Positions 18,862 to 52,407 of a DNA stretch of 64,000 nucleotides are shown here, piece after piece. A program made the translations under genes and the position numbers. The notes under the pieces are model-generated. The model did no database searches and was not told where the DNA came from. It saw only the letters and a list, made by a program, of their open reading frames with translations. Every line of letters begins with the position of its first letter. Positions within the stretch are counted from its first letter, which is position 1. This DNA comes from Yinghuangia soli (GTDB lineage: Bacteria > Actinomycetota > Actinomycetes > Streptomycetales > Streptomycetaceae), in contig NZ_JAKFHA010000030.1 of assembly GCF_021502675.1 (NCBI RefSeq), positions 1 through 64,000 of the forward strand. Reading direction: 5' to 3'.

Positions 18862-20039
18862 CGCTTCACCTTCGTCATCCCGAGCCGCACCATGGCGACG
18901 ATCTCGCGCTGGACCTCACTGACGCCGCCGCCGAACGTGTTGATCTGCGCCCGGCGGTTCATCGCCTCCAGGTAGCCGTCGCTGAACGCACCCGGCGACT
19001 TGGGCCGCAGCAGGGCGTCCGGACCGACGATCTCCATGAGGTTCCGGTAGACCTCGATGGCGCCCTCGGTGCCGAAGAACTTCACCCCGGACGCGTCGCC
19101 CGCGTTGAGCGTGTTGTTGCCGACGTCGTGCACGAGCCGCCAGCTGAACATGCGCACCGCGGTCAGCCGGGCGTAGGTCTCGGCGAACTTGAGCTGGACC
19201 CACGGCTGGTCGATGACCCGGACGCCGTCCTCGATCTCGGTGCTCTGCGCCCACTCCAGGACCTCGTTGAAGAAGTCCTCGGCCTGCATGCCGAGCGCGG
19301 CGAGCGCGACCCGCTCGTGGTTGAGCTGGTTGGTGATGAGGTTCCAGCCGCGGTTCTCCTCGTACACCAGGTTGGAGTACGGGACGCGGATGTTGTCGTA
19401 GTACGTCGCGGTGGTGGTCATGCCGCCGACCGTGACGATCGGGGTCCACGCGAAGCCGGGGTCGTTGGTCGGCACCAGGATCATCGTGATGCCCTTGTGC
19501 TTGGGCGCCTCGGTGTCGGTGCGGCAGGCCAGCCAGATCCAGTCCGCGCCCTGCGCGGTGCTGGTGAAGATCTTCTGGCCGTTGATGACCCACTCGTCGC
19601 CCTCGCGGACCGCCTTGGTCTGCAGCGACGCGAGGTCGGTGCCGGCCGACGGCTCGCTGTAGCCGATCGCGAAGATGATCTCACCGGACACGATCTTGGG
19701 CAGGAAGTACTTCTTCTGCTCTTCGCTGCCGTACTTGATCAGCGTCGGGCCGACGGTGTTGAGCGTGACCATCGACACGGGCGCGCCCGCGCGGTACGCC
19801 TCGTCGAAGAAGATGAACTGCATCTCCGGGCCCTTGCCCTGGCCGCCGTACTCGACCGGCCAGCCGATGCCGAGCCAGCCGTCCGCGCCCAGCTGCCGGC
19901 GGATGCGGCGGGTGGTCTCGCCACCGGACTCGCCCTCCGCTTCGAGGGCCGCGCGGACCTCCGGGGTGATCACACGGGCGAAATACTCCCGCAGCTCGGC
20001 GCGCAGGGCGTCCTGCGCAGGTGTTGGGGCGAGATGCAC
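18858..20039 (-). CDS. Acyl-CoA dehydrogenase (FadE29/ChsE2-like catalytic subunit)
   Basis: A 393-residue acyl-CoA dehydrogenase and the first gene of the operon. It shows LGIGWPVEYGGQGKGPEMQ, AIGYSEPSAGTDLASLQTKA, WVINGQKIFTS and DWIWLACRTD, all close to the FadE29 pattern. The likely catalytic base is Glu242 in LNHERVALAALG. Near the C-terminus NTFGGGVSEVQREIVA matches the FAD-binding end. FadE29 with FadE28 forms an alpha2beta2 enzyme that dehydrogenates the three-carbon side chain of steroid CoA esters. The start is GTG 20039 with AAGGAG eight bases before it. The 195 bases upstream carry the promoter and a 10-bp palindrome. Confidence 0.85.
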   Translation of the reverse strand: MHLAPTPAQDALRAELREYFARVITPEVRAALEAEGESGGETTRRIRRQLGADGWLGIGWPVEYGGQGKGPEMQFIFFDEAYRAGAPVSMVTLNTVGPTLIKYGSEEQKKYFLPKIVSGEIIFAIGYSEPSAGTDLASLQTKAVREGDEWVINGQKIFTSTAQGADWIWLACRTDTEAPKHKGITMILVPTNDPGFAWTPIVTVGGMTTTATYYDNIRVPYSNLVYEENRGWNLITNQLNHERVALAALGMQAEDFFNEVLEWAQSTEIEDGVRVIDQPWVQLKFAETYARLTAVRMFSWRLVHDVGNNTLNAGDASGVKFFGTEGAIEVYRNLMEIVGPDALLRPKSPGAFSDGYLEAMNRRAQINTFGGGVSEVQREIVAMVRLGMTKVKR

Positions 20040-43318: not shown

Positions 43319-43429
43319 TCACCAAACGCGATATCTCACCCGGAAGGGAACGCTGTGGACGCGCGGGCACCGACTGCCGCGCGGGTGGGGCAAGATGCAC
43401 GGGCAGGCTTCGATCAGAGGGAGTGTGCG

Positions 43430-44266
43430 GTGGCCCTGGCACCGACCTATGCGCGGCGCGAACTCGGCGCCGAGCTCAAACGGTTGCGCGAGGCCGCGCG
43501 GCTGACACAGGCGGTCGTGGCCAAGGCGCACAAGTGGAGCACGGCCAAGATGATCCGCCTCGAAGGCGGCTTGGTGACGCTGACGCTCCACGACCTGCAT
43601 CTGCTCGCCGACTTCTACGGAGCCGACGAGGACGAACGACTCACTCTGATCGAGCTGATGGAGCGCGCCGAGGAGGGTCAGTGGTGGCACGCATACGGCC
43701 GGATCGTGCCCCTGGTCCTCGACGAATTCCTGGCTCTTGAGGCGCAAGCGGCGAGCATCAGCAATATGCAGATGACGACAGTCCCCGGACTGCTGCAGTG
43801 CCGCAGCTACGCCGAGGCCATGTTCAGGAACGCGGCCAAGGTCCCAGACCCGGATGATGCCGCAGCGCTCGTGGATCTGCGCATGAAGCGCCAACGAGTG
43901 CTCAGCGAAGGCACGGCCTTCGACGCAACCATCAGTGAAGTCCTTCTGCTGCAGCCCATGGGCGGACGCGAGGTCCTCAAAGACCAACTCGCCCACCTGG
44001 CAAGGATGGCGGAGCTCCCCAATGTCACCATTCGCGTCGTTCCGCTGAGCACAGAGCAACCGCTGACCATCGGCGGTCTCATCCTCTTCGACTTCGCTGA
44101 CCAGGCGACGCCCGTTTCGTACACCGAGGATTTCGGCGGCATCACACCGCATCACAACCAGATCGATGTGCGGCGCCATCGTCGAGAGGCCGACCGTGTC
44201 AGGAGCATGGCGTGGTCACCGGAAGAGTCCCTGACCAACATCCAAGCGAGGCTGCGAGAACTATGA
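43430..44266 (+). CDS. XRE-family regulator with DUF5753 domain
   Basis: A 278-residue protein: an XRE HTH at residues about 10-65 (RRELGAELKRLREAARLTQ, then KMIRLEGGLVTLTLHDLHLL) and a DUF5753 domain to the end (NMQMTTVPGLLQCRSYAEAM, LLLQPMGGREVLKDQLAHLA). It is the WhiJ-like partner of the next gene, DUF397. The GTG at 43430 was chosen over the ORF's first codon because GAGGGAG lies just upstream. The next start overlaps by four bases. In Streptomyces this pair often acts as a developmental or metabolic repressor system. It precedes the graspetide genes in the same direction and may control them. Confidence 0.9.
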   Translation: MALAPTYARRELGAELKRLREAARLTQAVVAKAHKWSTAKMIRLEGGLVTLTLHDLHLLADFYGADEDERLTLIELMERAEEGQWWHAYGRIVPLVLDEFLALEAQAASISNMQMTTVPGLLQCRSYAEAMFRNAAKVPDPDDAAALVDLRMKRQRVLSEGTAFDATISEVLLLQPMGGREVLKDQLAHLARMAELPNVTIRVVPLSTEQPLTIGGLILFDFADQATPVSYTEDFGGITPHHNQIDVRRHRREADRVRSMAWSPEESLTNIQARLREL

Positions 44267-44451
44267 CCGAGACCTACTGGCGGAAGTCGTCCTACTCCGG
44301 TGCACAGGCGTCGGACTGTGTTGAGGTCGCACCGCTAAGCCAGGCAACTGGTGTACGTGACAGCAAGTCCCCCACCCTCGGCCACCTCGAACTCACGCCG
44401 GCCACCTGGGACGCATTGCTCGACGAACTCAAGGGCACCTCTGTACCGTGA
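44263..44451 (+). CDS. DUF397 protein
   Basis: A 62-residue protein of the DUF397 (BldB/WhiJ-associated) family. It begins ETYWRKSSYSGAQASDCVEV, the characteristic start WRKSSYSG...CVEV, and ends LELTPATWDALLDELKG, matching the family's WxxF/L pattern. It overlaps the XRE gene by four bases (ATGA), so the two proteins are made together, as is usual for this regulator-modulator pair. Length is typical. Confidence 0.92.
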   Translation: MTETYWRKSSYSGAQASDCVEVAPLSQATGVRDSKSPTLGHLELTPATWDALLDELKGTSVP

Positions 44452-44457
44452 TAGTGC

Positions 44458-44483
44458 GTCACGCAACGACTCCGTGGCGTGAC
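44458..44483. repeat. Short inverted repeat between DUF397 and the graspetide precursor
   Basis: Arms gtcacgc / gcgtgac with a 12-base spacer, just after the DUF397 stop. It may be a weak terminator, an attenuator or an operator for the downstream RiPP genes. Confidence 0.4.
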
Positions 44484-44547
44484 TTACCGGTGCCGCCGAG
44501 CCGGGACGTCGGAGTCAGCGGCACCAAGGCAAAGGGATGAGTGACCC

Positions 44548-44799
44548 ATGACATCAGCTCAGGTCCCTTGGGCACTCCGACTGGTCACGGACCGACTGCC
44601 GGTCGGACCCCCGGAGTACGCCTCCGTAGTCCTCGACCCGACTACGCAAATGGCCCGCTACACCGATGCCGACGGCGTCGTCGTAGAGATGGGCGAGCGT
44701 GGCACCTCACGTACCCGCGGCACTGCCTCGATGTCCGGTGGCGGCGATGGGAATAGCCCTCAAACCCAGTCGCAGGACGACAATACGACCGACTACTAG
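44548..44799 (+). CDS. tgmA: Graspetide (ATP-grasp-modified RiPP) precursor peptide
   Basis: An 83-residue peptide with the pattern of ATP-grasp-target RiPP precursors: a leader containing PWALRLVTDRLPVG and the conserved-looking YASVVLDPTTQMARYTDADG stretch, then a core rich in Thr/Ser and Asp. Hydroxyl donors are Thr53, Ser54, Thr56, Thr59, Ser61 and Ser63; a GGGDGNSP turn occupies 64-71; acid acceptors are Asp77, Asp78 and Asp82. Esters between the two arms would give a stem-loop. Asp67-Gly68 at the tip is the type of site converted to aspartimide. The ATG has AAGGGA about ten bases before it. The maturase and methyltransferase genes follow directly. The family call is from motif memory. 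Confidence 0.88.
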   Translation: MTSAQVPWALRLVTDRLPVGPPEYASVVLDPTTQMARYTDADGVVVEMGERGTSRTRGTASMSGGGDGNSPQTQSQDDNTTDY

Positions 44800-44812
44800 T
44801 CGGACTGATCAC

Positions 44813-45814
44813 TTGGCATCGACCGTCCTCGTACTCACTGCCCTCGAGGACATCACCGCTGATCTCGTTGTCGGCGCCCTCAACGATCGCGAAGTCGCAG
44901 TGATGCGATGCGATCCGGCGGATATCGGGCGGGGGCTGTCCTTCGCCGGTTCGATCGGCGCAGGCACGGCTGCATGGAGCGGGCGGCTGCGCACAGCAAG
45001 TCGCAGCGTGGAACTTGAGGATGTGGCGTCCGTCTACTACCGGCGGCCCACTTCGTACTCCGACCGATATGCCGACCTCCCCGCACAGGCCCGTGACTTT
45101 GCCACGGCAGAGGCACGTCACGGGCTCGGCGGCCTTCTGCACAGCATCCCTGGAGCTCGATACGTCAACCATCCGGCTGCGGTCGCCCGTGCCGACTTCA
45201 AGCCGGCGCAGTTGCAACTCGCTGCCCGTATCGGATTGCAGGTTCCGCCGACGTTGGTGACCAACGACGTCGATGCCGCCCGCTCATTTGCGGACGAACA
45301 TGGGCCAGTGGTCTACAAGACGTTCCGTGGTCTTCCTCCGGGAACCGATGGCGGGGCCGGGGCCATCTGGACTCAGCGCGTAGCCAGCGAAACCTTTGAC
45401 GAGGCCATCTCGGTCACGGCGCACATGTTCCAGGCCGAGATCCCGAAGGCATGCGACGTACGCATGACGGTCGTCGGCCGACAAGTCTTCGCCCAGCGCA
45501 TCATCGAACCAAACGGCGAGCTCGATTGGCGACGCGGCCGATGGGACGACCTGCGCTATGAGCCGGTTGTGGTGCCCCAGGTCATCAAGGCTGCTGCCCT
45601 CGACTTCCTCGGATCGATGCATCTCGCCTTTGGATGCTTTGACTGCGCACTCTGTGGATCGGCAGTCAGCCCGGAGTCGTGGTGGTTCATCGAGTGCAAC
45701 AGCAATGGCCAGTGGGGCTGGCTTCCGGACTTCAAGGACATCGCTGAAGCCTTCGCCGACCTCCTCGCACCTTCTCTTCCATGGCAACACCCGAACGGAG
45801 ACCGCGGCCGATGA
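44813..45814 (+). CDS. tgmB: ATP-grasp peptide maturase (ester-forming graspetide ligase)
   Basis: A 333-residue ATP-grasp ligase that should activate Asp/Glu side chains of the precursor with ATP and join them to Thr/Ser hydroxyls. It starts VLVLTALEDITADLVV and contains YYRRPTSYSDRY (75-86), the hallmark of this maturase group. Further features are Lys169 in VVYKTFRGLPP, DVRMTVVGRQVFAQRI (215-230) and Glu294/Asn296 in FIECNSNGQWGW for metal binding. I chose TTG 44813 because it gives the expected N-terminus 13 bases after the precursor stop; ATGs upstream lie inside the precursor in another frame. The methyltransferase gene overlaps its stop by four bases. Confidence 0.92.
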   Translation: MASTVLVLTALEDITADLVVGALNDREVAVMRCDPADIGRGLSFAGSIGAGTAAWSGRLRTASRSVELEDVASVYYRRPTSYSDRYADLPAQARDFATAEARHGLGGLLHSIPGARYVNHPAAVARADFKPAQLQLAARIGLQVPPTLVTNDVDAARSFADEHGPVVYKTFRGLPPGTDGGAGAIWTQRVASETFDEAISVTAHMFQAEIPKACDVRMTVVGRQVFAQRIIEPNGELDWRRGRWDDLRYEPVVVPQVIKAAALDFLGSMHLAFGCFDCALCGSAVSPESWWFIECNSNGQWGWLPDFKDIAEAFADLLAPSLPWQHPNGDRGR

Positions 45815-47022
45815 ACTCATCTCCGGGCCGACTCGACGACCTCGACGCCGATGCCGCAGAGCTGCGTGAGCAGCTCGGCGCGTCGCTCCTCGCCGATGGC
45901 GTGCTCGGCGACCCGGCCTGGCGCAAGGCCGTCGAACGGGTCCCTCGGCACCTGTTCACACCCGGCTTCTACCTGCCCGGGGGCGAGCGCGACGCGTACG
46001 GACTACCCCTCTGGGAACCCGTCACAGCCGTACGCGACTACCAGCGTTGGCTTTCCGCTGCGTACTCCGACGCCACGCTGATCACGCAGTTCGACGGGAC
46101 GGAACCGGATTGGGCAAGCGCCGCCGTACGTCATGGCGGCGTCCCCACCTCCTCGTCGACGTTGCCATCGCTGGTGGTCCGCATGTGGGACGACGCCGAA
46201 ATCGACGACGGACACCACGTGCTGGAGATCGGCACCGGCGCCGGCTACTCGACCGCGCTTGCCTGTGACCGCCTCGGCTCCGGACTAGTCACTTCTGTCG
46301 AGGTGGACGCCCGTCGCCTCGACCAAGCGGCAGACTCCTTGTACAGCTGTGGCTATGTCCCCAGCTTGGCTGTCGCCGACGGAGCGTACGGCTATTGGCC
46401 GGAAGCACCGTACGACCGGATCGTCGCGGCGTGCTCATTCCGCCACATCCCCCCGGCCCTCATCGCGCAGACCCGCCCCGGCGGGAAGATCCTCGTCACT
46501 TTGGGAGGGTGGCTGCATGGGTACGCCCGTGTGCTGCTGACCGTGAGCGAGGACGGCACCGCGGACGGGCCTCTCCTCGACGGAACCGTTTCCTTCATGC
46601 CCGCCCGCACGCACGCGGCACCCGCCTTTGGTGATCCGGCCCGTTGGGCCGCCCGCATCACCGGCGCCGCACGGACGCCCCGGCACACCCCGGAACGTTT
46701 CAGCGCTCCTACCGACCAAGCGTTCCAGTTGCGGTATCTCGTCCAAACAGCGGTGCCGAACGCACAGACCATTGCCCTGGGAGACACCACGTACCTCGTC
46801 GATGTCGTGAGCGGCTCCGCGGCGACTCTCACACGGGACGGCGATCGCTGGCAGGTACGGGAGTCCGGGGCCTTGAAGCTCTGGGACCGCGTCGAGGACG
46901 TGCTGGACGCCTACGACGCTGCCGGCAGACCCCGCCTGGACGCCTTTCGACTGCACGTCGGACCTGACGGGCAGACCCTGCGGCATCCTCAGATGCCGCC
47001 GCTGACCTTGCCATTCGACTGA
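45811..47022 (+). CDS. tgmC: PIMT-like methyltransferase of the graspetide system
   Basis: A 403-residue SAM-dependent methyltransferase related to protein-L-isoaspartate O-methyltransferase, with a long extra C-terminal domain. The SAM motif is HVLEIGTGAGYSTALACDR (about 136-154) and VPTSSSTLPSLVVRMWD matches the substrate-side motif of the family. In the studied fuscimiditide and amycolimiditide systems this enzyme methylates an Asp in the cross-linked peptide, which then closes to an aspartimide. Start ATG 45811 overlaps the maturase stop (ATGA); an upstream ATG at 45781 would enter the maturase reading region. It closes the operon; the convergent serine-hydrolase gene ends 18 bases later. 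Confidence 0.92.
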   Translation: MNSSPGRLDDLDADAAELREQLGASLLADGVLGDPAWRKAVERVPRHLFTPGFYLPGGERDAYGLPLWEPVTAVRDYQRWLSAAYSDATLITQFDGTEPDWASAAVRHGGVPTSSSTLPSLVVRMWDDAEIDDGHHVLEIGTGAGYSTALACDRLGSGLVTSVEVDARRLDQAADSLYSCGYVPSLAVADGAYGYWPEAPYDRIVAACSFRHIPPALIAQTRPGGKILVTLGGWLHGYARVLLTVSEDGTADGPLLDGTVSFMPARTHAAPAFGDPARWAARITGAARTPRHTPERFSAPTDQAFQLRYLVQTAVPNAQTIALGDTTYLVDVVSGSAATLTRDGDRWQVRESGALKLWDRVEDVLDAYDAAGRPRLDAFRLHVGPDGQTLRHPQMPPLTLPFD

Positions 47023-47042
47023 CCTCGGCGACCTTGAGGTCA
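47020..47042. terminator. Small hairpin between the graspetide operon and the serine-hydrolase gene
   Basis: Seven-bp arms (tgacctc / gaggtca) with a 9-base loop, spanning the end of the methyltransferase gene and the last codon of the convergent serine hydrolase. Confidence 0.45.
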
Positions 47043-47963
47043 ATCGCTGACGGCTTCGGCCGCGGCTTCGGCGGCTGTCTCTACTTCGGCGACGCCTGCG
47101 TCCATGGTGCTGTGGCTGTCGGACAGCACTGCCACGAGGAGTTCGTGGCCTTCGTGGGTGATCCGGCCGATGCTGTTGATGACCCATAGGCCGGTGGTGC
47201 TGCGCGGTAGCCAGCCGTTCTTCAGGGCCGTGGTGCCTTGGTCCGCGGCGGCGGAGACTCCCCAGGCCTGGTCGGTGGCCACCGACTCCATCAGGCCCAC
47301 CGCGTACTCCCGCGAGTCCGCGTCCAGTGCGGATGACTCCGCGGTCAGGGCGACCAGGAGGTCTATCTGGTCGCCGACTGTGGTCGTGGTGAGGCCCCAG
47401 GACTCGGCGGATGGGGTCGTCTCGGTCAAGCCCAGACGGGTGTTGGCGGCTTCGAGACCGTCTGCGCCGCCGACTTCCTTCCACAGCGTGGTGGCTGCGT
47501 CGTTGTCGCTTTGGCGGATCATTGCGGACGCTGACGTCCGTTCCGCGGTGGTGAGGTCGCGGGACTCGTCCTGGGCCTGCAGCAGCAGCGCGGCCAGGAT
47601 GTCGACCTTGGCGATGCTGGCCGAGACGTACTCACTGTCGCCGTTGGCCTCGGCTGTACGACCGGTCTCGGGGTCGAGTACGGCCACTGAGAGGTTGTCG
47701 TTGGCGACCGCAATCTTCGGCGCGCCGCGTACGGCGGTCGACGGCTCGGCCGTGGCCGACGGTTCGGCGGTGGCGGCAGCGGCGGTCGGCGACGACTCCG
47801 TTGCGGCGGTCGGGGAGGAGACCGTGGCGCTGACCACCGCGTCCCCCGCGTCCACCCGCCCGGCCGGCGTCACGAACAGCACGGCCAAAGCGGCCACAAG
47901 GCTCAGCACCCCGACCAGCAGCATCGTCGACGCCTGCGTCCAAGGCCTGCGTATCCGGCTCAT
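47040..47963 (-). CDS. Secreted serine hydrolase (class A beta-lactamase-like fold)
   Basis: A 307-residue protein with an N-terminal membrane or signal segment (about 12-35, TMLLVGVLSLVAALAVLFV), then a long Ser/Thr/Ala/Pro linker (40-80). The catalytic domain has SIAK (Ser116/Lys119), SDN (152-154) and KNG at 248-250 in place of the usual KTG. The Glu166-type acid of real class A lactamases is not obvious. It is therefore likely a penicillin-recognising serine hydrolase of unknown substrate, possibly wall-associated, and not a proven lactamase. It converges with the graspetide operon and diverges from the HAD gene. Confidence 0.82.
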   Translation of the reverse strand: MSRIRRPWTQASTMLLVGVLSLVAALAVLFVTPAGRVDAGDAVVSATVSSPTAATESSPTAAAATAEPSATAEPSTAVRGAPKIAVANDNLSVAVLDPETGRTAEANGDSEYVSASIAKVDILAALLLQAQDESRDLTTAERTSASAMIRQSDNDAATTLWKEVGGADGLEAANTRLGLTETTPSAESWGLTTTTVGDQIDLLVALTAESSALDADSREYAVGLMESVATDQAWGVSAAADQGTTALKNGWLPRSTTGLWVINSIGRITHEGHELLVAVLSDSHSTMDAGVAEVETAAEAAAEAVSD

Positions 47964-48551: not shown

Positions 48552-49115
48552 TCAGGGTCTGAAGCGCCCTGCGCCGGCCACCGTCTGCATGGCGAGGACC
48601 CGGTCGATCAGGCACACGAGAGCGTTCTTGACGGAGTCCCGGCGGCGGGCGTCCAATTCGACGATGGGGACGGCCGGGTCGATGCCGAGTGCCTCGGCCA
48701 CTTCGTCCAGGTCGAAGCGGCCGCCGGTGTCGAAGACGTTGACCGCCAGCAGGAACGGGATGCCGCGTTCCTCGAAGTAGTCGACCGCCGGGAAGCAGTC
48801 CTCGATGCGGCGGGTGTCGACCAGGACCACCGCACCGAGCGCGCCCTCGACCAGGTCGTCCCAGAGGAACGCGAAGCGGTCCTGCCCGGGCGTCCCGAAC
48901 AGGTAGAGGATCAGGCTCCGGTCCAAAGTGATGCGGCCGAAGTCGAGGGCCACGGTCGTGGTGGTCTTCGCGTCGACGCCGGTGACGTCGTCCACGCCGA
49001 TCGAGACCTCGGTCATCGCGGCCTCGGTGGCCAGCGGGTCGATCTCGGAGATCGCGCCGACGAACGTGGTCTTCCCGACGCCGAACCCGCCGCTCACCAC
49101 GATCTTCACCGACAT
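48552..49115 (-). CDS. cvnD: Conservon GTP-binding protein CvnD
   Basis: A 187-residue small GTPase of the Ras-like bacterial group. The P-loop is GGFGVGKTTFVGAI (GxxxxGKT), switch II is LFGTPGQDRFAF, and the base-specificity motif is LLAVNVFD (NVFD replacing NKxD). The last gene of a four-gene conservon (A sensor, B roadblock, C DUF742, D GTPase), which forms a G-protein-like signalling complex at the membrane. The ATG at 49115 is 10 bases after the cvnC stop. Function in most conservons is unknown; some influence development and antibiotics. No P450 gene (cvnE) follows. Confidence 0.92.
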   Translation of the reverse strand: MSVKIVVSGGFGVGKTTFVGAISEIDPLATEAAMTEVSIGVDDVTGVDAKTTTTVALDFGRITLDRSLILYLFGTPGQDRFAFLWDDLVEGALGAVVLVDTRRIEDCFPAVDYFEERGIPFLLAVNVFDTGGRFDLDEVAEALGIDPAVPIVELDARRRDSVKNALVCLIDRVLAMQTVAGAGRFRP

Positions 49116-49125
49116 CGGCGCTTCG

Positions 49126-49623
49126 TCATAGTGCCCGTACAAGGTCCCTGATCCTCTCGATGGTGTGGACCGGCATGCTCTCCGCCCGGGGTGTCTCGTG
49201 GCAGAACACGAGGTTTCCGGCGAGCAGGTCGCCGATGACGACCCGGGCAACACCCACGGGGACCCGCATCGCCGCCGCGATCTCCGCGACCGAGCACGGC
49301 TGTTGGCACAGCTCCACGACGCGCCGGGCCTCGAAGGCGAGCGGGGCGGAGAGCGCCGCGGGCAGGGCCCGGATCAGGGTCTCCAGGCGAAGGCCGTCGG
49401 CAAGCGGCGACGTGCGGCCGCCGGTGATGATGAACGGCCTTATGTACGCGTCGGCGTCGGCCAGTTCGGAGTCTGCCCCCGGTGCGTCGTACGGGCCCTG
49501 GCCGTACACCTCGGGATCGGGCGACGGCTCCGGATAGCTCTCGGTGTACCCGTACGTGTATCCCCCGGTGTCCGCCTCGAACGGCCGCCGGGGTACGAAC
49601 CAGCCTGCGTCGCTGTTGCTCAC
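49126..49623 (-). CDS. cvnC: Conservon DUF742 protein CvnC
   Basis: A 165-residue DUF742 protein. The N-terminal half is a Tyr/Pro/Asp-rich disordered region (GYTYGYTESYPEPSPDPE), and the C-terminal half is a winged-helix-like domain: DAYIRPFIITGGRTSPLADG, LRLETLIRAL, then VELCQQPCSVAEIAAAM and PVGVARVVIGDLLAGNLV. It is thought to link the roadblock protein to the GTPase. The start is GTG 49623. It follows cvnB by 7 bases on the same strand. Confidence 0.92.
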   Translation of the reverse strand: MSNSDAGWFVPRRPFEADTGGYTYGYTESYPEPSPDPEVYGQGPYDAPGADSELADADAYIRPFIITGGRTSPLADGLRLETLIRALPAALSAPLAFEARRVVELCQQPCSVAEIAAAMRVPVGVARVVIGDLLAGNLVFCHETPRAESMPVHTIERIRDLVRAL

Positions 49624-49630
49624 GGCAGCC

Positions 49631-50059
49631 TCATCGCGGCAGCACCCGCCTCAACTCGGAGATCAGCGCAGGTGTCAGCAGCGTCCCCGCGCGGTCCGCG
49701 AGCACGGCGATCTCGTAGCCGATCAGGCCGATGTCGGCGCCGCGGTGCGCCAGCACGCCGATGCAGCTGCCGTCCGCGATGGTCGAGACGAGCAGGAACC
49801 CGCGGCGCATCTCGATCATGATCAGCTTGAGGCCGTCGAACTCGTAGCGGCGGGAGGCGCTTCGGGCCAGCCCGGTGAGTCCGGAGACGACCGCGGACAG
49901 ATGGTCGGCCTCGGCCCGGTCGAGGCCCGCGGACATCGCGATGAGGAGGCCGTCCGACGACACCGCGACCGCGTCGCGTACGCCGTCGGTATCCCGGACG
50001 AAGTTGGCCAGCAGCCAGTTGAAGGCCTGGGGATGGCCGGTCTGCAGTTCGGCGGTCAC
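49631..50059 (-). CDS. cvnB: Conservon roadblock/LC7 protein CvnB
   Basis: A 142-residue roadblock/LC7 protein. It begins with a helix FNWLLANFVRDTDGVRDAVA, then VSSDGLLIAMSAGLDRAEAD, the family signature, and ends IGLIGYEIAVLADRAGTLLT. Roadblock proteins act as GTPase-activating or dimerising partners of the MglA/CvnD-type GTPase. The GTG start at 50059 overlaps the cvnA stop (GTGA), so CvnA and CvnB are co-translated. Confidence 0.92.
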   Translation of the reverse strand: MTAELQTGHPQAFNWLLANFVRDTDGVRDAVAVSSDGLLIAMSAGLDRAEADHLSAVVSGLTGLARSASRRYEFDGLKLIMIEMRRGFLLVSTIADGSCIGVLAHRGADIGLIGYEIAVLADRAGTLLTPALISELRRVLPR

Positions 50060-52407
50060 GGACCCTCCTGTTGTGGTGTCGGGTACGGGAAGTCGGGGGT
50101 ACTCGGCGGATCAAGGCGGTAAGGGGCCTGGGTGACGGTGCCGAACTCGGCGACCTCGCCCCGCAGATGGCCGCCCCGGAAGGCCGACAGCATGCTGCGG
50201 ACGTCCTCCGGGGACCGCTCCTCGACCGGCTCCTGGGGAACGGGAGCCTGGGCCGCGGGCGGCGGTGCGACTCGGCCGCGCGGGACGCGCTTCGTCAGCC
50301 CGTTGCGGGTGCGTTGGACGGGAGCGGGTGCCGCCGGGGGCGCCGCGTACGGCTCGGCGGGTGCGAAGTCAGCGGACTGATAGGACTGTTCGTCGGGCTG
50401 GACGTCACCAGGAGGCGGCAGCAGTGCGGTGGTGCCGGCGTACGGTCCTTGGACAGGCCCGGACGTCGCCCCGAGCGCGGCGGCCGGGGAAGGTCCCAGC
50501 GGCCGGGGCCCGACCGGTGCGAGCTGCGGTGCCGCCTCCCGCGTCGGATCCGCCAGCACCGCCGGAGGCAACTGCACCCGGGCGGTGATGCCGGCCACCG
50601 GGGACTCCCCGATGTGGACCTCCGCGCCGAGGCGCTGCGCGAGGCGGCCGACCACGTAGTGGCCGAGGTTGCGCGTGGGGGCGTCGAGGAAGTCGACCCG
50701 CCCCGAAAGGCGGGCGTTCGCGGTCTCCACGGCGTCGGCGCTCATGCCGACGCCGTGGTCGATGACCGCCACCAGGTAGCCGTTCCCGACCCGTCGGCCG
50801 TAGATCTCGACCTCGACGTCGGGCGGCGAGAACGCCAGCGCGTTCTCGACCAGTTCGGCGAGGAGATGGGCCAGTTCGGCCACCACGGTGCCGGCCACGG
50901 AGATCTCGTCCATCCGCCGCAGCACCACCCGGCGGTAGTCCTCGACCTCGGACAAGGCGGCCCGCACCACGTCGGTGATGTGCAGCGGCGCCGCGCTGGG
51001 CCGCTGCCCGGCCTCGCCGACCAGGATCAGCAGGCTTTCCGCGTTGCGGCGCATGCGGGTGGCCAGGTGGTCGAGTTCGAAGAGGTTGCCGAGTGCGGTC
51101 GGATCGGCTTCCTCGTGTTCGAGGCGGCTGATGAAGCCGAGCTGGCGCCGGACCAGGTTCTGGTTGCGGCGGGCCAGGTTGACCAGCGAGTCGGTGGTGT
51201 TGCGGCGCAGGACGGCCTGTTCGGCGGCGAGTTCCACCGCGGTGTCCTGCACACGGCCGAACGCCTCGGCGACCGCCCGGATCTCGCGTCCCGAACGCGG
51301 CGGCACGGCGACCGGCCGGGGCTTGTCGATACCGTGCGCGCCGGTCCGCAGCCGGGCGACGACCTCCGGAAGCCGCTGCGAGGCCAGCGCTTCGGCCTCG
51401 GCGGCCAGCAGCGTGAGCGGGCGCGTGATGGACCGCACCGCGATCAGGGTCAGCGCCACTTCGCCGACCACCAGCAAGGCGGCGAAGACGAGGTACGCCA
51501 CCAGGTCCGACGACGCCTCGTCGCGCAGGTCCGCGGACCGCTGCCGGATCTCCTCGCCGGTCGACTGCTGCACGGTCCACATGCCGTCGATCACCGTGGT
51601 CATCGACGCCCACCACGCCGCCGGATCGGTCCCGGCGAGAGTCCGGCCGTCGGGTGCGGCCAGGGCGATCTGCTCGGTCTGCAGGGCCTGCTGGGCGGCC
51701 GGCGAACGCAGCACCGCATCGGCGCTTTCCCGCTGCGCGGCGGTGGCGCTGCGCCGGAACCGGGCCAATGCCGCCTGGTGGGTGGCCTTGATCTCGGCGA
51801 ATGCCTGGTACTCGGCGCCCTTGAACTTCCCCGCGCTCAAAACGCCGTTGAGGAATCCGCGGCCCCGCGCGGCGGCCTCCTTGGCATCGCCGAGCGCGGT
51901 CAGCGCGTCGAGGCCGCGGAGCAGTTGCGTATCGCGCGTGCGGCTCGGGGCGGCGCCGGCCTCGACCAACTCGGCGATGCCGTCCGTGAAGTACGCGAAC
52001 GTCGGGTCGCGCTGCGCCTCGCCGGTGTCCGCCTTCGCACGGATCTCGGGCAGCCGGGCCCAGCGGTCGCGGGCCGCGTCGAGACCCGCGCGGTCCAGGC
52101 CCGCGGTCTCCGCGGAGAACCCGGAGAGGGCCCGGTCGGTGCGGGCGCGCTGCTCGTCCAGCGGCTTCCGGTAGTCCGCGCGGCCGGCCAGCAGGCCGTT
52201 GGTCAGGCCGCGTTCGCGCTGGAGTTCGTGGACGACGGCCTGGGCCCCGATCACCAGGTCCACGTCGTCCGCGGTGCGCTCCGCCTGCCGGTACGCGTCC
52301 AGCTCGGCGGCCGCCAGGACGCCGAGCAGGACGAGCACCGCGGCAAGCGCCAGGGCCAGCACGGTGACCAGGCGTCCGCGGATCGTCGCGGGGCGGAATT
52401 TCCTCAC
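50056..52407 (-). CDS. cvnA: Conservon sensor CvnA with nitrate/nitrite-sensing domain and HATPase
   Basis: A 783-residue membrane sensor. After a TM helix at about 13-33, a periplasmic nitrate- and nitrite-sensing (NIT) domain covers about 40-300, with HELQRERGLTNGLLAGRADY, a typical motif of NIT domains. A second TM helix (YLVFAALLVVGEVALTLIAV) and a HAMP-like region follow. A dimer helix leads to a GHKL ATPase at about 480-620 with ELVENALAFSPPD as N-box and VIDHGVGMSADAV as G1. The last 150 residues are Pro-rich and ordered only at the tail. In this class the H-box is degenerate, so it signals through CvnB-D. ATG 52407 start. First gene of the conservon. Confidence 0.92.
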   Translation of the reverse strand: MRKFRPATIRGRLVTVLALALAAVLVLLGVLAAAELDAYRQAERTADDVDLVIGAQAVVHELQRERGLTNGLLAGRADYRKPLDEQRARTDRALSGFSAETAGLDRAGLDAARDRWARLPEIRAKADTGEAQRDPTFAYFTDGIAELVEAGAAPSRTRDTQLLRGLDALTALGDAKEAAARGRGFLNGVLSAGKFKGAEYQAFAEIKATHQAALARFRRSATAAQRESADAVLRSPAAQQALQTEQIALAAPDGRTLAGTDPAAWWASMTTVIDGMWTVQQSTGEEIRQRSADLRDEASSDLVAYLVFAALLVVGEVALTLIAVRSITRPLTLLAAEAEALASQRLPEVVARLRTGAHGIDKPRPVAVPPRSGREIRAVAEAFGRVQDTAVELAAEQAVLRRNTTDSLVNLARRNQNLVRRQLGFISRLEHEEADPTALGNLFELDHLATRMRRNAESLLILVGEAGQRPSAAPLHITDVVRAALSEVEDYRRVVLRRMDEISVAGTVVAELAHLLAELVENALAFSPPDVEVEIYGRRVGNGYLVAVIDHGVGMSADAVETANARLSGRVDFLDAPTRNLGHYVVGRLAQRLGAEVHIGESPVAGITARVQLPPAVLADPTREAAPQLAPVGPRPLGPSPAAALGATSGPVQGPYAGTTALLPPPGDVQPDEQSYQSADFAPAEPYAAPPAAPAPVQRTRNGLTKRVPRGRVAPPPAAQAPVPQEPVEERSPEDVRSMLSAFRGGHLRGEVAEFGTVTQAPYRLDPPSTPDFPYPTPQQEGP

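Follow-up and report, generated by a model that had tools for sequence, protein, structure and literature searches.

Group 13 graspetides, or graspimiditides, are known from four characterised products and from 962 to 1,432 predicted clusters, depending on the survey (PMC13001092, PMC10787088), and 99% of the 1,326 clusters in one survey come from Actinomycetota (PMC13001092; PMC10787088). In the parts of these reports drawn on here, the characterised products carry Thr-Asp esters in a stem-loop, with a methylated loop Asp and then a Gly (PMC13001092; PMC10787088), the Gly being present in all four (PMC13001092). Ring formation in most graspetides begins at the inner acceptor and proceeds outward, the exception in the cited account being ThfB, with which either ring can form alone (PMC12291112). 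The same account describes an engineered fuscimiditide in which a C-terminal Ser-Asp together with a Thr at position 1 gave a third ester (PMC12291112). The precedents disagree on how much of the stem the methyltransferase needs. Formation of the amycolimiditide aspartimide requires at least two of the four cross-links, and methylation of pre-amycolimiditide lacking one cross-link can slow about 10-fold (PMC13001092), whereas SsfM is described as inefficient on SsfA carrying fewer than all five esters, the fifth of which has been suggested to lie at the C-terminal carboxylate (PMC10787088). Leaders of graspimiditides have been taken off with trypsin, and as far as the cited account goes the native step is apparently undetermined for any of them (PMC12291112).

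Operon layout and protein families

The window, by which we mean the whole stretch of DNA analysed, comprises positions 1 to 64,000 (forward strand) of contig NZ_JAKFHA010000030.1 in the Yinghuangia soli assembly GCF_021502675.1. It contains a precursor gene, an ATP-grasp maturase (the ligase) and a PIMT-like methyltransferase, whose coordinates, with the 13-base junction and the 4-base overlap, reproduce those of an initial annotation made from the letters of the window (Table 1).

Table 1. Features of the precursor-ligase-methyltransferase locus, in window coordinates.
Feature	Position	Strand	Details
Precursor gene	44548..44799	+	83 aa, ATG start, TAG stop; TIGR04186, PF14408
Leader region, predicted, residues 1-51	44548..44700	+	Conserved family region; leader/core boundary putative
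Core, predicted, residues 52-83	44701..44796	+	GTSRTRGTASMSGGGDGNSPQTQSQDDNTTDY; column counts over 119 listed relatives
Asp67-Gly68, predicted methylation/aspartimide site	44746..44751	+	D67 and G68 in 119/119 listed relatives
TAG stop	44797..44799	+	Sense codon there in relatives: GAG 28, GAA 8, CAG 1 of 37
Remnant TCG GAC TGA, in frame	44800..44808	+	Former C-terminal end and stop, from DNA comparison with relatives
Retained TGA	44806..44808	+	Four bases before the ligase TTG
Precursor-maturase junction	44800..44812	+	13 untranslated bases
ATP-grasp maturase	44813..45814	+	333 aa, TTG start; TIGR04187; PDB relative 9bou_A
Maturase-methyltransferase junction	45811..45814	+	4-base ATGA overlap
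PIMT-like (PAMT) methyltransferase	45811..47022	+	403 aa, ATG start, extra C-terminal domain (predicted); TIGR04188

Screened against curated profiles, the precursor scored 66.7 bits with TIGR04186 (cut-off 25), the maturase 383.3 bits with TIGR04187 (cut-off 350) and the methyltransferase 424.9 bits with TIGR04188 over residues 23-389 (cut-off 380). The Pfam scores of the operon were 72.5 for PF14408 (cut-off 25), 32.5 for PF21068 (cut-off 27) and 72.4 for PF01135 (cut-off 20.3). The curated profiles therefore recognise all three elements of group 13, namely the precursor, the adjacent maturase and the adjacent PIMT-homologous methyltransferase, and by these family assignments the trio is a group 13 graspetide (graspimiditide) operon. 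The ester-then-aspartimide pathway proposed initially matches what the three assignments would predict; that proposal had been staked on the maturase belonging to the ATP-grasp peptide-ligase families, and the profile scores place it there. A microviridin maturase of the MvdC/MvdD kind was rejected, with 137 and 130 bits against equivalog cut-offs of 425 and 475, respectively. Likewise rejected was a pamtide system, in which a PAMT is the only enzyme, since the ATP-grasp maturase sits between precursor and methyltransferase.

The core had been described as unrecognised and the peptide as new, and neither description is supported by the searches. The precursor is matched by 180 other proteins, 119 of them listed at 68-83% identity, while among about 8,000 candidates scored for each enzyme the maturase had 587 matches (62-68% identical among those listed) and the methyltransferase 1,161 (66-70%). 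By this similarity the operon is one more member of a large published group.

Among solved structures, the sequence relatives of the maturase were 9bou_A (E 6.5e-42) and also 5ig8, 7mgv, 7m4s and 5ig9, all ATP-grasp ligases of graspetide type. The methyltransferase is related by sequence to protein-isoaspartate methyltransferases. Its structural model has a confident C-terminal domain and a poorly predicted N-terminal half; the best fold match of this low-confidence model was Thermotoga PIMT 1DL5, across both domains, and the extra C-terminal domain that is a group 13 trait appears to be present. At the putative place of the WXXXGXP motif reported as typical near the C-terminus, the window reads YDAAGRP. 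Tyr occupies the presumed Trp place in 116 of 120 subfamily sequences, the window included; this Tyr is the rule across the subfamily and was dismissed as an oddity of the window.

Genomic neighbourhood

A Pfam scan of 13 neighbouring ORFs, two of which were matchless, named no exporter or peptidase, in agreement with the initial report of none in the operon. HTH (DUF5753) and DUF397 genes lie directly upstream of the operon (43355-44451). This pair was rejected as a general part of the operon because same-strand DUF397 genes are rare upstream of the relatives' loci. By motif search, a same-strand DUF397-like protein was found within 1.5 kb upstream at 1 of 37 distinct close-relative loci, that of the window, and by BLAST within 1.7 kb upstream at 3 of 78 maturase loci (duplicates kept, window copies excluded), one from the window's genus (L014) and two from Nonomuraea (L055, L056). 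Opposite-strand DUF397 genes were upstream at 8 others of the 78, and in the motif search the close Streptomyces relatives had none directly upstream. The gene is either there by chance or a lineage-bound regulator.

GC3 is 0.72-0.80 for the operon and the two preceding genes, against a median of 0.92 in 25 long window ORFs that had been selected on the basis of a high GC3. A gene for an ATPase-like protein preceding the HTH/DUF397 pair also has a GC3 of 0.80, and the flanking genes for a ClC-type channel (0.91) and a HAD-type protein (0.94) are higher. These values hint that 43355-47022, the pair together with the operon, is possibly one acquired stretch.

On the minus strand, 47040-47963 encodes a Beta-lactamase2 domain (PF13354) that scores 36.6 bits against a cut-off of 200 for true class A enzymes. 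Further along the same strand, 48552-52407 encodes a small GTPase-like protein, a Roadblock/LC7 protein and a sensor kinase with a NIT domain, a group which we take to be conservon-like.

No second precursor of the same family scored above the profile threshold in the window's genome. A second graspetide-like pair lies there at L088:4278-5412 (G000:C7, about 122,277-123,411), comprising a 72-aa ORF that ends KKDDD (TIGR04186 17.3 bits, cut-off 25) and, directly after it, an ATP-grasp maturase (TIGR04187 200 bits, cut-off 350). Contigs C36, C45, C23, C1 (two), C78 and C73 of the same genome carry seven more TIGR04188-like methyltransferases at 200-276 bits (cut-off 380), possibly belonging to other PAMT systems.

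The predicted core and the shortened precursor end

The precursor belongs to a subfamily (PF14408, TIGR04186; mostly Streptomyces, as are most of the listed named relatives) whose members end in DDNTTDYESD or nearly so. The search returned 181 matches with the window included, and the alignment and column counts given here are those of the 119 listed relatives, 61 of the 181 falling outside this set. The candidate donors in the core are T53, T56, T59, S61 and S63 and the candidate acceptors D77, D78 and D82, their pairing being putative. T59, S63, D67, G68, D78 and D82 are kept in all 119 listed relatives, D77 in 118 and T56 in 117, and position 53 is Thr or Ser in every one. The Thr/Ser donors, Asp acceptors and loop Asp expected of a group 13 core are thus all present and conserved. 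Just before the core, the window has E for K at residue 50 (0/119 listed relatives) and R for H at residue 51 (1/119). Moreover, the ligase starts with TTG; the listed relatives, inspected by eye, mostly have ATG or GTG there. Together, these unusual residues and the TTG start may reflect weakened selection or expression.

The main departure lies at the C-terminus. The 119 listed relatives run three residues further, through -ESD, whereas the window precursor ends at Tyr83. Their last residue is Asp in every case, with Glu (116) or Ala (3) two places before it, and this final Asp is absent from the window precursor. In the DNA of the relatives the reading frame passes the codon equivalent to the TAG and ends at a TGA, which is retained in the window. 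By this comparison the window precursor is cut three residues short relative to its full-length relatives. The 13-base junction exists because the TAG ends the frame early while the relatives read on to the later TGA; its reported length was right, but it is not a simple spacer, as it was created by the TAG and holds the old end of the gene. Similarly, the operon was initially called complete and its product equivalent to known ones: the three genes are indeed there, but completeness is doubtful, since the precursor is without the last three residues of all 119 listed relatives.

The stop was seen in the window alone. It occurs at the equivalent codon in 0 of 37 other distinct full-ended DNA copies, a count for which the search pattern itself demanded the tail; in 39 other DNA rows (duplicates included) found without this demand, the tail was present in all. 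A profile search of 394 same-family genomes, which reads through stops, matched the precursor in 122 and placed 18, the window's included, in the same subfamily (155 bits or more). One of these genomes (G009) agrees over the stretch compared with the named record of Wenjunlia vitaminophila (L016 and L067 against L053), which places the window's genome in the family of Wenjunlia, the Streptomycetaceae. Only the window's copy among the 18 subfamily genomes has a stop inside the precursor, the other 17 having none. This count leaves out partial matches in G329 (100.9 bits) and G008 (77.3 bits), which fall short of the core's end, and ten weaker listed matches with an internal stop, which are distant precursors with other tails whose true end the profile may overrun. 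One further subfamily genome, from a second draw of 293, had no TAG inside the precursor. More distant family precursors carry other ends, and the -ESD end is a trait of the subfamily, not of graspimiditides at large. In the available literature on graspetides and graspimiditides, a search for premature stops or truncation turned up no report of a naturally shortened graspimiditide precursor.

Predicted product

We favour a working operon of graspimiditide type, in which the early-stopped precursor likely gives one ester ring fewer and a predicted aspartimide at Asp67-Gly68; from the sequence evidence, we put the chances of this at about even. Once bound to the leader, the ligase would activate one acceptor after another (Asp77, Asp78, Asp82) and link each to a donor among Ser61/Ser63, Thr59, Thr56 and Thr53; the resulting nested esters would change the mass by about -54 Da. 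The lost final Asp was likely an ester acceptor, and in a nested arrangement it would pair with T53, the outermost donor, so that the outermost ring would stay unclosed. Three esters are predicted because nested pairing leaves out the ring of the lost Asp, and because the fuscimiditide extension provides a precedent for the reverse change. The inner rings should survive the loss of the last acceptor, since rings form from the inner acceptor outward. If the shorter stem is tolerated, the methyltransferase would methylate the loop Asp67, whose methyl ester would then cyclise to an aspartimide (another -18 Da) able to open to isoaspartate. A stem one ring short might block this step, given the inefficiency of SsfM and the roughly 10-fold slower methylation of pre-amycolimiditide. 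As the pairing is putative, the lost Asp may also have lain outside any ring.

It is quite unlikely, in our estimate, that the C-terminal carboxylate of Tyr83 stands in for the lost Asp, so that a side-chain-to-tail ester completes the outermost ring; such a linkage has so far only been postulated, for SsfA, in the cited part of that report (PMC10787088). If it does, one stop codon would have re-engineered a natural graspimiditide.

Alternative readings of the stop

The truncation is known from one genome and would be explained equally well by an error in the sequence or by an allele that lost its function recently. Besides the favoured ring-poor working variant, we therefore keep recent loss of function and sequencing error as readings.

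Loss of function, which we regard as possible though doubtful, would mean that the operon is decaying, with a recent stop leaving the peptide unfinished (without the aspartimide, or with no product at all) while erosion has not yet reached the enzymes. Such decay happens: a same-subfamily precursor in G329 (L076, C60 about 19,487-19,669) has lost its core, its frame passing, just after the core start, into unrelated sequence that ends at a stop. Because of this broken precursor, loss of function gained weight and the working variant lost some. At L077, the core was not detected in the search made there. The nine bases of the old end, still unchanged in the window, bear on the age of the stop. 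Had they evolved neutrally along the entire branch leading to the window (dS about 0.53-1.06), the probability of no change would be about 7e-5 to 0.009, a rough estimate, because dS approaches saturation and the nine bases adjoin the start of the ligase gene. With such low odds of neutral retention, the stop is probably recent, or else its nine downstream bases are still used; a recent stop agrees with decay, as do the TTG ligase start and the unusual residues 50-51. Furthermore, SsfM requires all five rings, according to the cited part of that report (PMC10787088).

For the ligase, mean pN/pS was 0.38 between the window and its relatives and 0.395 among 37 relatives themselves; for the methyltransferase, the values were 0.375 and 0.346 (19 relatives), the window ranking sixth of 20, and both sets include duplicate loci. 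At near-invariant columns of 120 sequences for each enzyme, the window has the most departures in the ligase (6, the next having 4) and is joint third in the methyltransferase (5, the highest being 6), counts confounded by distance, as the window is a distant row, which alone raises them. The departures and the methyltransferase value a little above the relatives' mean lean towards decay; against it, the reading frames of both enzymes are uninterrupted, their scores exceed the cut-offs and the ligase pN/pS is not raised, although a very recent event would show nothing here. On these grounds decay of the enzymes was set aside, and they appear to show little sign of loosened constraint.

A sequencing or assembly error, which would make the true codon a sense codon and the operon an ordinary full-length member, seems unlikely. 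The truncation is a single-base difference in one contig of one genome, with the downstream end intact, which would suit an error, but the assembly is of good quality apart from this (96.25% complete, in 91 contigs) and all three genes form open reading frames. Read-through of the TAG, by which one gene would yield both a short and a full-length precursor, would fit the in-frame TCG-GAC-TGA behind it, kept beyond what neutral drift along the branch would permit. It is very improbable, as a recent mutation accounts for the same retention, the ligase start region may be what preserves these bases, and TAG ends 3 of the 30 window ORFs tallied, the precursor included, making general suppression unlikely.

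Relation to characterised graspimiditides

The initial annotation was right about the pathway, overstated the novelty and overlooked the stop, a detail that likely changes the product. As an operon, the locus is one further case beside over a thousand predicted graspimiditide clusters. Its useful part is the shortened precursor, in which the end of the stem is missing while both enzymes are intact. It probes whether the last acceptor fixes the number of rings, whether a C-terminal carboxylate can serve the ligase as an acceptor and whether the methyltransferase depends on an entire stem, the point on which amycolimiditide and SsfA differ.

In the cited part of its report, the SsfA/SsfB/SsfM system of Streptomyces sp. 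F-3 has the same trio as the window, an Asp-Gly methylation site, acceptors within the C-terminal dozen residues and a PIMT homologue with a C-terminal domain; its core fragment ends at residue 97 and carries five esters, whereas the window precursor has 83 residues (PMC10787088). Only three Asp stand in the last dozen residues of the window precursor, against the five SsfA esters, one of them postulated to involve the C-terminal carboxylate. Albusimiditide is reported to have four esters. A Streptomyces graspimiditide from S. albus J1074, it is described as having the gene structure of amycolimiditide (PMC13001092). Amycolimiditide and fuscimiditide, as far as the cited accounts describe them, share with the window the trio of precursor, ATP-grasp ligase and PIMT homologue, and their products have a nested stem of four and two Thr-Asp esters, respectively, with an aspartimide in the loop (PMC13001092, PMC12291112). 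Fuscimiditide, of 22 residues, is described as ending in the acceptor Asp22, and it is an end of this kind that, judged by its subfamily, the window precursor no longer has.
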